Assembly (NCBI GenBank): GCA_031280965.1
Contig: JAITFZ010000005.1
Location: forward strand, 1-64,000
Origin: Oscillospiraceae bacterium
GTDB taxonomy: Bacteria > Bacillota > Clostridia > Oscillospirales > Ruminococcaceae
Reading direction: 5' to 3'
DNA length: 64,000 nucleotides
A model generated the notes under the pieces. The model worked only from the letters and a program-made list of their open reading frames with translations. It was not told where the DNA came from and ran no database searches. The position numbers were made by a program, and so were the translations under genes. Shown here one piece after another: positions 7,723 through 51,425 of this stretch. How positions within the stretch are numbered: position 1 is the first letter of the stretch; each line of letters begins with the position of its first letter.

Positions 7723-7746
7723 CCACACCGCCGCAAAGGGGAGTCA

Positions 7747-7843
7747 TTTGAAACAACATACAACCGAAACGGGAAAATGTCGTTTTCGCTTCGTTTTTAA
7801 ACGAAGCTGTTCTCTGTTAGTGAAGAAAGGACTTTGTAAAAAT
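7747..7843 (+). repeat. Dispersed leader element, copy A (before purM)
   Basis: Full-length copy of a repeat found five times here. It starts TTTGAAACAACATACAACCG, has a central inverted repeat (CTTCGTTT / AACGAAG), carries AAGAAAGGACTTT and ends at the purM ATG. It also contains a frame beginning TTG-AAA-CAA, here open through into purM. Other copies are 11243-11297, 26662-26737, 26742-26800 and 50873-50970. Confidence 0.8.
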
Positions 7844-10763: not shown

Positions 10764-11229
10764 ATATAGGAAAGCCAATACAAATGACATACCCGAACTT
10801 GTTCGGCTTCGTCTTGAGTTTTCAGAGGTATCGTGCAACTATTTTAAGTTAGAATTCTCCGACGAAACAAGGGAAATTCTGCGGGTGACAAACGCAGATT
10901 ATTTCACTGCGGGACTGCTTGACGGCTCGTTAGTTGTGTTCGTTGCCGAGGACGGCGGGAAAATCGTGTCTACGAGCGGAATTATGTTTTGGCGGCATTT
11001 ACCCGGCCCTGCGGCCTTAGACGGCAGAAAAGCTGTAATTGCAAACATGTACACTATTCCCGAATACCGCAAACAAGGCATAGCGACCGAGCTTATGCGG
11101 CTTCAGTTTGATGAGGCGAAGGCAAGGGGTGTGCGCGTGATTAACCTTTCGGCAACCGAAATGGGCAGAAAACTGTACGAGAAATTAGGTTTTGAAGCAG
11201 ACAACGATGAAATGAAAATCAGACTGTAA
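10753..11229 (+). CDS. GNAT-family N-acetyltransferase
   Basis: 158 residues with the acetyl-CoA-binding motif IPEYRKQGIATELM (near residue 98) and the C-terminal LYEKLGFE strand-helix typical of GNAT enzymes. The acceptor is unknown. It starts inside the 3' end of the IMP cyclohydrolase gene (11-base overlap), so it is co-translated in the purine operon. Confidence 0.85.
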   Translation: MEIKYRKANTNDIPELVRLRLEFSEVSCNYFKLEFSDETREILRVTNADYFTAGLLDGSLVVFVAEDGGKIVSTSGIMFWRHLPGPAALDGRKAVIANMYTIPEYRKQGIATELMRLQFDEAKARGVRVINLSATEMGRKLYEKLGFEADNDEMKIRL

Positions 11230-11242
11230 AGGAATTAAATAG

Positions 11243-11297
11243 TTTGAAACAAAATATAACCGAAACGGAAGAGGTTGAAGAAAGGGCTTTAAGAAAA
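11243..11297 (+). repeat. Dispersed leader element, copy B (before the AICAR transformylase)
   Basis: Starts TTTGAAACAAAATATAACCG, lacks the central hairpin, and ends AAGAAAGGGCTTTAAGAAAA before an ATG. It is the shortest copy of the family (see 7747-7843). Its TTG-AAA-CAA frame is open into the downstream gene. Confidence 0.7.
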
Positions 11298-15789: not shown

Positions 15790-16995
15790 ATGAAATTAAA
15801 AAAACTGCTTGCAGTTTTAGTGGCTTGCATGATGGTTGCAGGCTTCGCAACAATGACAACTCTCACCGCAAGCGCGGATGATGACATTCTCATTATTAGT
15901 CCTTGGTCTTTCGGCGGCGGCTATGTAATGGGCTCCGGTTTGACTGTTGGTCAGGCTTACACCCTTGAAGTTGAAATTTTTGCTGACGAAGGCTACAACG
16001 GCGGTATCCGCGTAAGATATGCAGACACTGAGGAAACAAACGACTCTCTTACGGCTCCCGGCAACGCCGACCTTGAAGGCGCTCTCGACGGAACTAATGA
16101 AAAAACATTTGACGCAGTTCCTGCAAACTTCTTAGCCGGAACTCTTCCGGAAGACGAAGTCAGCCTTTTAACCATTAACTTTACTTACGAACCTTTCTCA
16201 AACGATGAGTTCACATCTAACTCTGTCGGTATCTTCGGTTACTGGGGCAGCGACCAATATGAAGTTCTTGGTATGCGCTTACTGAGCGGCGGCAATCAAA
16301 TCGCTGCTATCGGCACATTAGCTCCCGAACCTGCTGTACCTAACCTCATGGATGAAGACCTCGTAATTTCTGCCTGGTCTTGGGGCGGCGCGTTTATAAA
16401 CAACGACCTCTTTGAAGTAGGCAAATCCTACAAAATAGTTTTTGAAGTTTACTTTGATGAAGGCACAAACGGCGGTCTTCGCGTAAGATACGCAGACTAT
16501 ACGCCCGGCGATGTTAACTTAGCGGCAAATAACGCTGACCTTGACGGCGCTCTTGACGGAACAAACGGCACTGCTTTTACCGCAGTTCCTGCAAACTTCT
16601 TGAACACTGACGGACGCGATGATTCGACCTTGGAGTTTACAATTGACTTTACATTTAATCCTTTCTCTAACGTTGAATTCGCTCCCAACTCTATCGGTAT
16701 CTTCGGTTACTGGGGCGCTGAAAATTATGAAGTTCTCAGCCTGACAGTATTCGATGCCGCAGGTAATGTTCTTGCTTCTACTGAAGAAGATGAAGAAGCC
16801 CCTGACTTCGGCGCTGAAGAACCCGGCGATGGCGAAGAAGAACACGAATGTGACGATGATTGCGACCACGGCGACGGCGACGAAGAAGCTGAAGGCGACG
16901 ATGATGACACCAACCCTAAGGGCGGCGTTGCTCTCGCGGTTGTTCCTGCTCTCGTAGCAGTTGCGGCTTTAGCAGCTTCCCGCAAAAGGAAGTAA
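15790..16995 (+). CDS. Secreted surface protein with two repeated domains and a C-terminal anchor
   Basis: 401 residues. The signal peptide ends near LTASA. Two similar units of about 130 residues follow; both contain ISxWSxGG, GGxRVRYAD, ALDGTN, AVPANFL and IGIFGYWG or VGIFGYWG. Next comes a very acidic linker with Cys and His (HECDDDCDHGDGDEE), then NPKGG, a hydrophobic stretch and a final SRKRK. That tail resembles a sortase-type sorting signal, but the NPKGG motif is atypical, so membrane retention is also possible. GGAGG precedes the ATG at 15790. It has its own promoter and a strong terminator, so it is monocistronic. Domain family not recognised. Confidence 0.75.
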   Translation: MKLKKLLAVLVACMMVAGFATMTTLTASADDDILIISPWSFGGGYVMGSGLTVGQAYTLEVEIFADEGYNGGIRVRYADTEETNDSLTAPGNADLEGALDGTNEKTFDAVPANFLAGTLPEDEVSLLTINFTYEPFSNDEFTSNSVGIFGYWGSDQYEVLGMRLLSGGNQIAAIGTLAPEPAVPNLMDEDLVISAWSWGGAFINNDLFEVGKSYKIVFEVYFDEGTNGGLRVRYADYTPGDVNLAANNADLDGALDGTNGTAFTAVPANFLNTDGRDDSTLEFTIDFTFNPFSNVEFAPNSIGIFGYWGAENYEVLSLTVFDAAGNVLASTEEDEEAPDFGAEEPGDGEEEHECDDDCDHGDGDEEAEGDDDDTNPKGGVALAVVPALVAVAALAASRKRK

Positions 16996-23013: not shown

Positions 23014-24246
23014 TTACAGTACTATTCTTGCGGCGTTTTCGGGCTTGTACCTTCTGATTGCCGCCTGATTTAAGATAACTTCAAGAGTGTCGAATCCGGC
23101 TCTTATTTTTTCCTCTAACTCATCATCTTTGATTTCATGCAGAAGAAAGTTAACCGTGCTTTCATCAAGCCAATCCTCGCGTTCAAGTATATCAAGCCGC
23201 TGTAAAAGGAAGATGTTCTCCTCGGTTTTGTACGTATCTGCGGTACCGGAAACAATATCCGCTAAGAAGTTGTGTACATCTTCCGGTAAATACTGAGGGT
23301 AGCCTTTACGCTCAAGCAGGTCGAATTCGTTAGAGTCATACTGCGGATTTTCATCGGTTTCGTCCTCGTCCGGGTCATCGGACTTGTCGGGGTCATCGGA
23401 GTCATCGGGTTCGCCGGAGTCATCGGGTTCGCCGGAGTCGTCGGGGTCGCCGGAGTCATCGGGTTCGCCGGGGTTATCTTCATCGGCTACATAGTCGCGC
23501 TCTTCAACGAAATCCACGTAATCATCATAAATAATCGCAAAAGCCTCGCCGGCGTTCAGCCTTACGACAAAGTCTGCCGCTAAAACTTCGAGTTCCGTCA
23601 TCTGGTCTTCATCCAAATCATGAGTAGATAACCCTATCATGCGAAAACGCATGAATTCTTCGGCAAAAAAAGCTTTGATTTCAGCTTCGGAAACTGCTTC
23701 AATTCCGTCAGCACCGTAAAGCGCGAAAAAAACCATTTCCGACATAAGGCTGTACGATAAAATAGCCGAAAGCGATGCTTTCCCGATACCTATGCTTTCG
23801 TAAAAGCCGCCCCATGTATTGAAGCCAAGGTTAAGTGTATCAATCCCCTCGGTGCTTGCCCAAAAGCCTTCGGTATTTCTGCGGATTGCATTTTCATCAT
23901 CGTCACTCAGCGACAATCCTAACTCGTCAAAAAGCTCGGCGGTAATTCTCATCTCCTTGAGCAGTTCGATAGCGCGGTTGTTAATCCAGTCGCCGAACGG
24001 TATCCCGTCAAGCTCCTGACGGAAGTAGTTGAAATCGCCCGCATTAGTGTCAATATCGGGGTTGGTGTCTATGAATATCATCGCGGCTTCCTGTGCCGCC
24101 GTAAGCTGTGCATAAATATATTCGCCTGCGCGCACCTCTTCGCCGTTAATGGTCATGACATACCTTGTATCGGCGCAAGCCGACATGCCAAGCGTTCCGA
24201 GAATCATTGCCGCCGCTATAATAATCGCGGTTATTCTTGTTTTCAT
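23014..24246 (-). CDS. SurA/PrsA-like foldase lipoprotein with acidic repeat
   Basis: 410 residues. The lipobox GMSAC puts it outside the membrane. The N-terminal part (residues 27-230) resembles the SurA N-terminal chaperone domain (TINGEEVRAGEYIYAQL). I see no clear parvulin isomerase domain. Residues about 260-300 are a tandem EPDDSG/DPDDSG acidic repeat encoded by 18-base units at 23355-23480. The C-terminus is helical. It lies downstream of pheT by 27 bases, so it may be transcribed from the pheS promoter. Confidence 0.65.
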   Translation of the reverse strand: MKTRITAIIIAAAMILGTLGMSACADTRYVMTINGEEVRAGEYIYAQLTAAQEAAMIFIDTNPDIDTNAGDFNYFRQELDGIPFGDWINNRAIELLKEMRITAELFDELGLSLSDDDENAIRRNTEGFWASTEGIDTLNLGFNTWGGFYESIGIGKASLSAILSYSLMSEMVFFALYGADGIEAVSEAEIKAFFAEEFMRFRMIGLSTHDLDEDQMTELEVLAADFVVRLNAGEAFAIIYDDYVDFVEERDYVADEDNPGEPDDSGDPDDSGEPDDSGEPDDSDDPDKSDDPDEDETDENPQYDSNEFDLLERKGYPQYLPEDVHNFLADIVSGTADTYKTEENIFLLQRLDILEREDWLDESTVNFLLHEIKDDELEEKIRAGFDTLEVILNQAAIRRYKPENAARIVL

Positions 24247-26661: not shown

Positions 26662-26737
26662 ATTTTCATAAAGTCCTTTCTTCACCAACGGGGAATGAAA
26701 ACAACGTTTTCCCCGTTTCAGTTGTATTTTGTTTCAA
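26662..26737 (-). repeat. Dispersed leader element, copy C (before pheT)
   Basis: Minus-strand copy starting TTGAAACAAAATACAACTG. It has a strong hairpin (AACGGGGAAAAC pairing with GTTTTC-ATTCCCCGTT) and AAGAAAGGACTTTATGAAAAT, ending at the pheT ATG. Inside it, ATG-AAA-ATA-TGA overlaps the pheT start (ATGA). It is followed upstream by copy D. Confidence 0.85.
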
Positions 26738-26741
26738 GCTT

Positions 26742-26800
26742 ATTTTCATAAAGTCCTTTCTTCACCAATGGGGAATGAAAACAACGTTTTCCCGTTTCAA
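26742..26800 (-). repeat. Dispersed leader element, copy D (tandem with C)
   Basis: Tandem partner of copy C, beginning at the base next to the stop of the upstream gene. It lacks the AAAATACAACTGAAAC segment, consistent with recombination between two TGAAAC repeats. Because of the tandem, its terminal ATG opens a 27-codon frame that runs through copy C. Confidence 0.8.
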
Positions 26801-27187
26801 TTATAGATTAATACCGGATTTCCCGGTTTTCACTTTCTTGAAATGCGTCCTCGTCTGCCGCCAAAGCGCAAACCTTACCGCAAATGCCGACGCTATCCCC
26901 AAAAACAACGTACCCGCGAGCGTCAGCAATGATAACGCGCTGATTGTTTCATCCAATACCTCGCGCCCCGCGAAATTTACCGCGCCGGCTACAACAAAAG
27001 CCGCGGATATAAGAAGCGTGAAAATATAGTAAACAGCCCTGGCAGTGCGCGGTTTGATTAAATCCGAAATCAGCAGAGCGGTAGTCCCGATGAATATGCC
27101 GACACCAACCGCCGAGCCAAGCACCGTCGGAATCCCGACAACGAAAACAATCACGGAAACCTTGTATGCTTTGATATATTTTTTCAT
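26801..27187 (-). CDS. Small membrane protein of unknown function between pheS and pheT
   Basis: 128 residues with four likely membrane helices (VSVIVFVVGIPTVLG, GVGIFIGTTALLISDLI, YYIFTLLISAAFVVAGAV, ALSLLTLAGTLFLGIASAF) and a basic tail. No family recognised. It lies nine bases after pheS on the same strand, so it is probably co-transcribed. Confidence 0.6.
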   Translation of the reverse strand: MKKYIKAYKVSVIVFVVGIPTVLGSAVGVGIFIGTTALLISDLIKPRTARAVYYIFTLLISAAFVVAGAVNFAGREVLDETISALSLLTLAGTLFLGIASAFAVRFALWRQTRTHFKKVKTGKSGINL

Positions 27188-50872: not shown

Positions 50873-50970
50873 GCTTTCATAAAGTCCTTTCTTCGCCAAC
50901 AGAAAATAGCTTCGTTCCAAAACAAAGTGAAAACGACATTTTCCCCATTTGGGTTATATTTTGTTTCAAA
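50873..50970 (-). repeat. Dispersed leader element, copy E (before the phage holin)
   Basis: Full-length minus-strand copy starting TTTGAAACAAAATATAACCC, with AAGAAAGGACTTTATGAAAGC at its end. It fills the whole spacer between the stop of 50973-51425 and the holin ATG. It is the only family member inside the prophage. ATG-AAA-GCA-TGA overlaps the holin start. Confidence 0.85.
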
Positions 50971-50972
50971 CT

Positions 50973-51425
50973 TTACGCCCTCCTTATCCGGTCAATGCGA
51001 ATTATTGTATGCTCGTCCGAACCTGTTTTTGTATAATTCCAAGCTATGCGACTTATTAAAATCCCGCTGTTTGGCGCGATTGTCGCGCCATCGCCCGCGA
51101 ATATACCTATTTCGGTAATTTCGCCAACTGCTTCATCTGCTAATATAACAAACTCGGTGCGTACTTCGCCAACCGCTATTGCTACGGGGGCGGCTGTATA
51201 CTGCGTCCTAAATGTTTCGTTGGCAAGCGTGACGGGGTTACTGTCCGTTATCGTGCCATTCCCTACCGCAAGATATTTGATTAATAAATTCGGCGCTGTT
51301 TCGCCTGTAAGCAACAGAGCCATATGGTTTATGTAATCGTCCGTTACTCTGTTTTTTATTGTTTTAATCAATATATTGTTTTTATAGATTTCAAAAACAC
51401 CTTCATGATTAATACTGCTATTCAT
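50973..51425 (-). CDS. Phage tail-fibre/collar-like protein
   Basis: 150 residues. VGNGTITDSNPVTLANETFRTQYTA, VGEITEIGIFAGD and a beta-rich pattern resemble small phage tail-tip or collar proteins. It overlaps the tail hub gene by eight bases. Confidence 0.6.
   Translation of the reverse strand: MNSSINHEGVFEIYKNNILIKTIKNRVTDDYINHMALLLTGETAPNLLIKYLAVGNGTITDSNPVTLANETFRTQYTAAPVAIAVGEVRTEFVILADEAVGEITEIGIFAGDGATIAPNSGILISRIAWNYTKTGSDEHTIIRIDRIRRA

Follow-up and report, generated by a model that had tools for sequence, protein, structure and literature searches.

A MIRU-like repeat that probably inserts at start codons in Oscillospiraceae

Main

A short repeat, in units of ~76–101 nt, was found in front of the start codons of unrelated genes, and in gene orientation, across the genome of an Oscillospiraceae bacterium (G000) and in two relatives of the same genus (G012 and G027). 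Runs resembling a Shine–Dalgarno (SD) sequence lie upstream of part of the copies, orthologous genes in relatives present the same site empty, and identical copies stand at unrelated loci in one relative. The reading that we judge to be probably correct is that these are short, non-autonomous mobile elements which insert at translation starts, their impact on the host gene being softened by termination–reinitiation. The best name that we can propose is MIRU-like, start-codon-inserting mobile repeat of Oscillospiraceae.

Five copies in a 64-kb window

The window, the whole 64,000-nt stretch of DNA that was analysed, is part of the 2.01-Mb, 36-contig genome G000. A profile search of all of it, with filters off and E up to 1, returned exactly five matches (7748–7841 and 11240–11296 on the plus strand; 26664–26741, 26744–26821 and 50897–50973 on the minus strand), at the five dispersed places picked out in the initial annotation of this DNA, and every copy has the orientation of the gene downstream (Table 1). 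That annotation held that the element always ends at an ATG; four copies do adjoin the ATG of a gene, but copy 4, the second one before pheT, abuts the next unit (copy 3) and has no gene start at its end. The frame opening TTG-AAA-CAA-AAT that was noted there has different endings in different copies. In copies 3 and 5 the upstream open reading frame (uORF; 26737–26666, 23 amino acids, and 50969–50877, 30 amino acids, respectively) finishes at a TGA stop that overlaps an ATG in TTATGA, whereas copy 1 (TTG at 7748), whose frame lacks one base relative to the consensus, and copy 2 (TTG at 11244) read in-frame into purM and the AICAR transformylase gene. The gene behind copy 5 encodes a phage-type holin (Pfam PF05105).

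Table 1 Element copies and probable native SD sequences in the window
Feature	Position	Strand	Gene start adjoined	Basis
Probable native SD of purM, AAAGGGGAG, upstream of the element	7735–7743	+		Read directly
Copy 1, long form, between purF stop (7722) and purM	7747–7843	+	purM ATG, 7844	Profile and direct reading
Probable native SD of purH, AAAGGA	11228–11233	+		Read directly
Copy 2, centre deleted, before AICAR transformylase gene purH	11240–11297	+	purH ATG, 11298	Profile and direct reading
Copy 3, short 80-nt form, directly 5' of pheT	26662–26741	−	pheT ATG, 26661	Profile and direct reading
Copy 4, 5'-truncated unit, in tandem with copy 3 at an 80-nt period	26742–26806	−		Profile and direct reading
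Copy 5, long form, before holin gene	50873–50973	−	holin ATG, 50872	Profile and direct reading
Probable native SD of holin gene, AAGGAGG, 9 nt before the uORF TTG	50979–50985	−		Read directly

Copy number, unit and distribution

The 3'-end motif GAAGAAAGGACTTTRT, with up to two mismatches allowed, has 135 sites in G000 (reversed control, 6); the 5'-end motif has 79 (control, 0). Units in this genome run from AAGTTTGAAA at the 5' end to AAGAAAGGACTTTATGAAAAT at the 3' end, as a rule with the start codon of the gene directly after, and measure ~80 nt (AAGTTTGAAACAAAATACAACYGAAACGGGGAAAACGTTGTTTTCATTCCTTGTTGGTGAAGAAAGGACTTTATGAAAAT) or ~101 nt; the ~100-nt form carries an inserted palindrome that is seen directly, and tandem units repeat with an 80-nt period. 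The G000 profile set comprises 107 distinct copies, compared with the 135 motif sites, locus-edge duplicates having been removed and the centre-deleted purH copy being absent from it; such duplicates are still included in the counts given below on frame retention, start context, frame ends, core identity and SD-to-TTG spacing. Copies from G012 and G027 come from the loci examined, which cover part of each genome.

The close family, searched by a short 3' pattern, occurs in 3 of 99 genomes, all of one genus, and the wider family, searched by profile with up to 66 candidates scored per genome, in 8 of 71 genomes of that genus; both counts include G000. The related gut bacteria that bear the element are probably from termites. 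In an order-wide sample of 245 genomes G000 was the sole match, with 19 candidates scored per genome under strict filters, which makes for a weak test outside the genus. Spread by phages or viruses was also considered and found no support, viral contigs yielding no exact match to the 3' end in a search that may omit records near G000. Diverged subfamilies are present in G046, G020, G056, G100 and G006. What most of their copies have in common is AAGTTTGAAA at the 5' end, a centre resembling GGGGAAAACGAA, an SD of the AGAAAGGRC type and an immediate start codon; an SD-like run often lies upstream, and in several a TTG/ATG ORF reads LKINLQNRGKR-like. Further subfamilies appear in G027 (L123:3406–3636, L144:4701–4851 and L141:3988–4066), some of which have GGACATGGTGAAA or a related sequence at the 3' end, and arrays of that genome join different subfamilies at one gene.

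Copies lie at gene starts

The units considered were those that have a complete 3' end and no less than 160 nt of sequence downstream, once locus-edge duplicates had been removed. For each, the offset is the distance between the ATG of the element and the start ATG of an ORF (60 amino acids or longer) on the same strand, over the range −12 to +38. G000 has 104 such units, 18 of which are followed by another; among the 86 that are terminal or single, 82 have an ATG at +0 to +19 (+8 in 61, +11 in 12, +0 in 8 and +19 in 1) and 4 have none. G012 has 39, with 3 followed by another and a same-strand ATG in 33 of the other 36 (absent in 3). Of the 166 in G027, 36 lead into another unit, and the remaining 130 show an ATG at +0 to +33 in 108 cases, a non-ATG start in 3 and no ORF in 19, several of these preceding a diverged unit that the follow-on test missed. 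A random position and strand in the window has such an ATG at +0 to +19 with a frequency of 7.7%, or of 0.4% for a single fixed offset. The initial annotation had proposed asking whether copies genome-wide lie at starts and in gene orientation; overwhelmingly they do both, which is also the placement of MIRUs, the mycobacterial repeats discussed below.

The start codon beside the element tends to be followed by A. At offset +8 this is so in 54 of 61 cases in G000 (gene start ATGA), 29 of 34 in G012 and 49 of 67 in G027, compared with 55 of 120 element-free genes, a control picked by SD and ORF length in which false starts are possible; at +11 it is so in only 4 of 12 (G000). Element-free pheT begins TTGA in five genomes and ATGA in two. 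The preference at +8 agrees with two readings, a target that ends in TGA and selection for the stop of the short frame ATG AAA ATA TGA. MIRUs prefer a DTGA target, and our search of open-access PMC papers found, among the matches listed, none on this preference.

These counts also bear on an element with no target preference at all, of which only expression-preserving copies near starts would survive in a compact genome. Truncation in the G000 profile set is skewed to the 5' end (20 of 107 copies, compared with 2 of 107 at the 3' end), as would be expected if the 3' SD must stay, and usually essential genes have been struck. Neutral intergenic sites should, however, keep insertions, yet only 4 of 86 terminal G000 units have no ORF downstream, and the one exact offset (61 of 86 at +8) and the ATGA preference are left unexplained; we regard this alternative as unlikely. 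Under the preferred reading, of insertion at translation starts, the start-proximal position could still reflect, in part, selective retention instead of targeting.

Probable insertion between Shine–Dalgarno and start codon

Complementarity of 5 nt or more to the 16S tail, within 20 nt upstream, was scored as an SD-like match. First or single units have one in 26 of 60 cases in G000, 20 of 33 in G012 and 54 of 95 in G027, compared with 55 of 420, 30 of 231 and 120 of 665 control windows further upstream, respectively. By the measure used, about half of the first units have no such match; element-free ORFs of at least 200 amino acids in the window have one before the first ATG in 23 of 31 cases, so some element sites have lost, or never had, a clear SD. 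The distance from SD to TTG is mostly 7–9 nt in G000 and wider in G012 and G027.

In congeners that lack the element, the SD adjoins the start codon at purM, purH and pheT, and in G000 the element sits between the two. For purM, 55 of 60 congeners searched gave a match and 30 loci were read; the element is present in 3 (G000, G012 and G027) and absent in 27, all of which have, by eye, an SD-like run directly 5' of the ATG. At purH, G013 reads AAAGGAGTAGTAAG-ATGACAGAGCTTGAACTT, with SD and ATG adjacent and no element, and G045 has no element and no clear SD either. For pheT, 68 of 71 genomes matched and 30 loci were fetched, the start being resolved in part of them; where the element is absent, an SD is followed by TTGAAY (G012, G027, G023, G046 and G017) or the gene reads ATGAAC (G056 and G020), and in G000 two units are followed by ATGAAC. 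A gene that we take, from our own reading of its N-terminus, to be lipoprotein-like has the order TAATGGAGGTATTA-element-ATGAAAAAATTA in G000 (L205) and is empty, as TATGGAGGTTACA-ATGAAAAAG, in G027 (L144). Another, whose product begins MANLKGTKTEQNL and is presumably rubrerythrin-like, bears the element in G000 and G027 but not in G012.

The three occupied purM genes carry copies of different sequence types, that of G012 belonging to the identical group of its genome (see below); the same start codon may have been hit more than once, or conversion may have taken place. Conversion is central to a further explanation, by which a once-native leader was copied by gene conversion or tandem duplication and spread only through recombination between leaders. 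It would accommodate the near-identity that is often seen between tandem units within a locus, and, as an alternative to repeated insertion, the differing purM types. The presence and absence of the element between SD and start at orthologous genes, and its dispersal to unrelated genes, nevertheless require insertion, and we consider spread by conversion alone very improbable.

By eye, the 5' flanks of the insertions vary and the 3' spacer is nearly constant. No target duplication was seen, one of 1 nt being possible. A target-site duplication through the SD-spacer of G100 (L311, L318 and L333) was considered and rejected, the same 3' end being found in other G100 copies, so that these sequences are better taken for tails of earlier units.

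Probable spread to unrelated genes

Among 33 copies compared in G012, six share an identical 76-nt core in front of different genes and 15 lie within two mismatches; a second search of this genome found seven places identical over 83 nt. The flanks of the six have a mean identity of 0.32 upstream and 0.38 on the gene side, and the identical copies are therefore not segmental duplications. These six copies point to a recent spread. Nearly all cores differ in G000 (69 different cores among 70 copies compared) and in G027 (83 among 86), which leaves G012 as the one species that shows the burst. The initial annotation had raised the prospect that the copies are parts of larger duplications; that they are not was shown for G012, by the unrelated flanks, and in G000 the cores are diverse.

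In G000 arrays, for example L035, L045, L058, L068 and L212, the first unit is 5'-truncated in several and later units are full and nearly identical, which hints at how arrays grow.

From 30 G000 targets drawn at random, 25 were scanned with Pfam; 18 of 20 matched, to unrelated families, and 3 of a further 5 had matches. The targets of the element include usually essential genes (DnaB, a Trp/Tyr-type tRNA synthetase, PheT and iPGM, by Pfam).

An autonomous long version was sought in the examined G000 loci, by looking for 5' ends with no 3' end in the next 125 nt, and was not seen; such 5' ends are few, about four of them decayed ends additional to the truncated copies above, and are decayed or truncated copies or chance matches. 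The consensus ends, AAGTTTGAAAC and GACTTTATGAAAAT, are seen directly not to be inverted repeats. A REP sequence mobilized by IS200/IS605-RAYT, or an element mobilized by reverse transcriptase, was rejected because neither enzyme is enriched in bearers: Y1 transposase was found in 1 of 8 bearers compared with 19 of 63 non-bearers, and reverse transcriptase (RVT_1) in 2 of 8 compared with 22 of 63. Most bearers have neither.

An internal reading frame that may couple to the host gene

The consensus uORF has 23–30 codons, starts at a TTG behind the native SD and stops at ATGA/TAATG next to the AAAGGA SD of the element itself. In 40 of 66 copies in G000, 25 of 30 in G012 and 41 of 76 in G027, the TTG frame terminates within −25 to +14 nt of the gene ATG; the other two frames do so less often (G000, 2 and 13 of 66; G012, 0 and 3 of 30; G027, 1 and 10 of 76). 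The copies share descent and so cannot each be counted as separate support for the open frame of the consensus. In 14 of the 19 diverged copies listed, uORF start and gene ATG were resolved, and the stop lies within the same range in 9 of the 14. Among 82 full G000 copies, 47, of long and short form alike, keep the frame to the TTATGA/TTATAA overlap and 26 have an internal stop. TTATGA is the commonest stop context in G000, and CTTAATG in G012 and G027. The ATG that the stop overlaps is, in most copies, the one within the element, which precedes that of the gene by 8 nt. Copies with the stop right at the start codon of the gene (+1 or −2) number 4 of 66 in G000 and, among the classes listed, 8 of 76 in G027.

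We propose that a non-autonomous element inserts, in gene orientation, between SD and start codon, and that the native SD, left in front, would drive the TTG-initiated uORF of ~23–30 codons within it. This uORF would stop at ATGA/TAATG beside AAAGGA, and terminating ribosomes, or ribosomes binding AAAGGA, would then start the host gene. With ribosomes handed over in this way, insertion would be nearly silent even in essential genes. With later drift, the uORF would decay or become fused in-frame to the host gene, copies would lose 5' parts, and units would multiply in tandem. The initial annotation had described a mobile or copied 5'UTR module in front of unrelated genes that brings its own Shine–Dalgarno, and its account is supported by the genome-wide copies, the empty sites in relatives, the identical copies in one relative and the unrelated targets; that the module 'resets translation' of its host genes is plausible, judging from sequence.

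The encoded peptide was a further candidate for function, rejected because selection on it was not detectable in G000 (nonsynonymous differences 113, compared with 124 expected; synonymous 76, compared with 67; stops 11, compared with 8.6). In G027 the frame has 8 stops compared with 26.5 expected and 387 nonsynonymous differences compared with 359 expected, for which shared descent may account. Given the G000 result and the internal stops in 26 of 82 copies there, coupling is at most a property of fresh copies, and we take the uORF to have belonged to the active founder and to decay once a copy has inserted.

Rickettsia palindromic elements are short repeats that can join the reading frame of a protein, and the present family might likewise add N-terminal peptides by in-frame insertion. 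The purM and purH copies of the window are fused in this way, as are 4 of 66 terminal copies in G000. Such fusions are, however, a small minority here, the frame of most copies ending at or before the gene start, and with no peptide selection detectable in G000 we think this explanation extremely unlikely.

RNA structure and regulation

A cis-regulatory RNA leader, riboswitch-like or protein-binding and recruited to a regulon, would also lie nearly always in the 5'UTR in gene orientation, and many housekeeping genes carry the element. The initial annotation described a hairpin-forming centre, and the centre is indeed self-complementary, the named stem being complementary in 90.2% of cells compared with 57–80% in slid controls; a hairpin is nonetheless weakly supported, and the stem covaries no more than in shuffles. 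For the five window copies the folding z-scores range from −1.64 to +0.32, the consensus fold over 54 copies has 3 pairs at −0.07 kcal/mol, and Rfam matches in the window at gathering score are two tRNAs only. We rejected a regulatory RNA on the covariation and Rfam results, and a regulon by function on the unrelated Pfam families of the random G000 targets. Identical copies also precede unrelated genes in one species, and the element is missing from orthologues; a regulatory leader appears distinctly unlikely to us.

Comparison with known elements

Start-codon-targeting repeats with a coupled ORF were known to us only from mycobacteria, where MIRUs were reportedly described by Supply et al. 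in 1997; the present family, from Bacillota, would be a second case. The initial annotation knew of no named element of this kind, but MIRUs fit its description as they are portrayed in the pertinent passages of a 2025 review, being apparently mobile, inserting at start codons and containing an ORF whose spacing to the coupled gene is −4 nt, a placement for translational coupling that is thought to limit harm to the host gene (PMC12548453). Their units, dispersed and tandem, measure 46–101 bp in the cited text of PMC3914561. M. tuberculosis H37Rv has 41 MIRU loci. The Oscillospiraceae element resembles them in its short units (~80/101 nt), dispersed and locally tandem, and in start-codon insertion, gene orientation and internal ORF, a parallel in design that sets it beside MIRUs by description. 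It differs in its host phylum and its abundance (135 motif sites compared with 41 loci), may differ in having its own SD-like AAAGGA, and is one step removed in its putative coupling, the uORF stop usually overlapping an ATG within the element, 8 nt from that of the gene. A search of open-access PMC papers gave, among the matches listed, no title on such an element outside mycobacteria.

The pneumococcal repeats BOX, RUP and SPRITE are small and interspersed, and were judged parasitic, non-autonomous and spread mainly in a burst (PMC3049150). Some BOX copies form ORFs, with no good SD candidates in three loci examined, and BOX overlaps 58 CDSs, 36 of them at the extreme 3' end (PMC3049150). 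The present element shares small size, interspersion, non-autonomy and, with some BOX copies, an ORF, but the cited passages of PMC3049150 describe no binding to start codons. MITEs, defined there as short, AT-rich and devoid of a gene for their own movement (PMC3049150), are similar in all three respects; they differ from our element, in which neither terminal inverted repeats nor target-site duplication was seen.

The family could belong to a new class of mobile element, at ~100–200 sites per 2-Mb genome, with no inverted repeats, an insertion machinery that recognizes translation-initiation sites and an origin in Bacillota independent of MIRUs; we put this forward tentatively and with considerable doubt. 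The target recognized would possibly be the SD together with the start codon, perhaps in mRNA or on the ribosome, or else a DNA motif with TGA at its end. If so, start-codon insertion with a coupled uORF would be a recurring strategy of bacterial genome parasites. The greater abundance of the Bacillota case, its empty sites and its signs of a recent burst make the transposition mechanism and the idea of harm avoidance testable. For annotation, the starts and N-termini of many genes of the bearers, usually essential ones included, are easily misassigned.

Other features of the window

Nine-base tandem repeats at 23348–23491 encode a stretch rich in Asp, Ser, Gly, Glu and Pro within an ORF at 23014–24246 on the minus strand. 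At 16063–16736, two pairs of segments, ~78–82% alike and 468 bases apart, suggest a duplicated domain.
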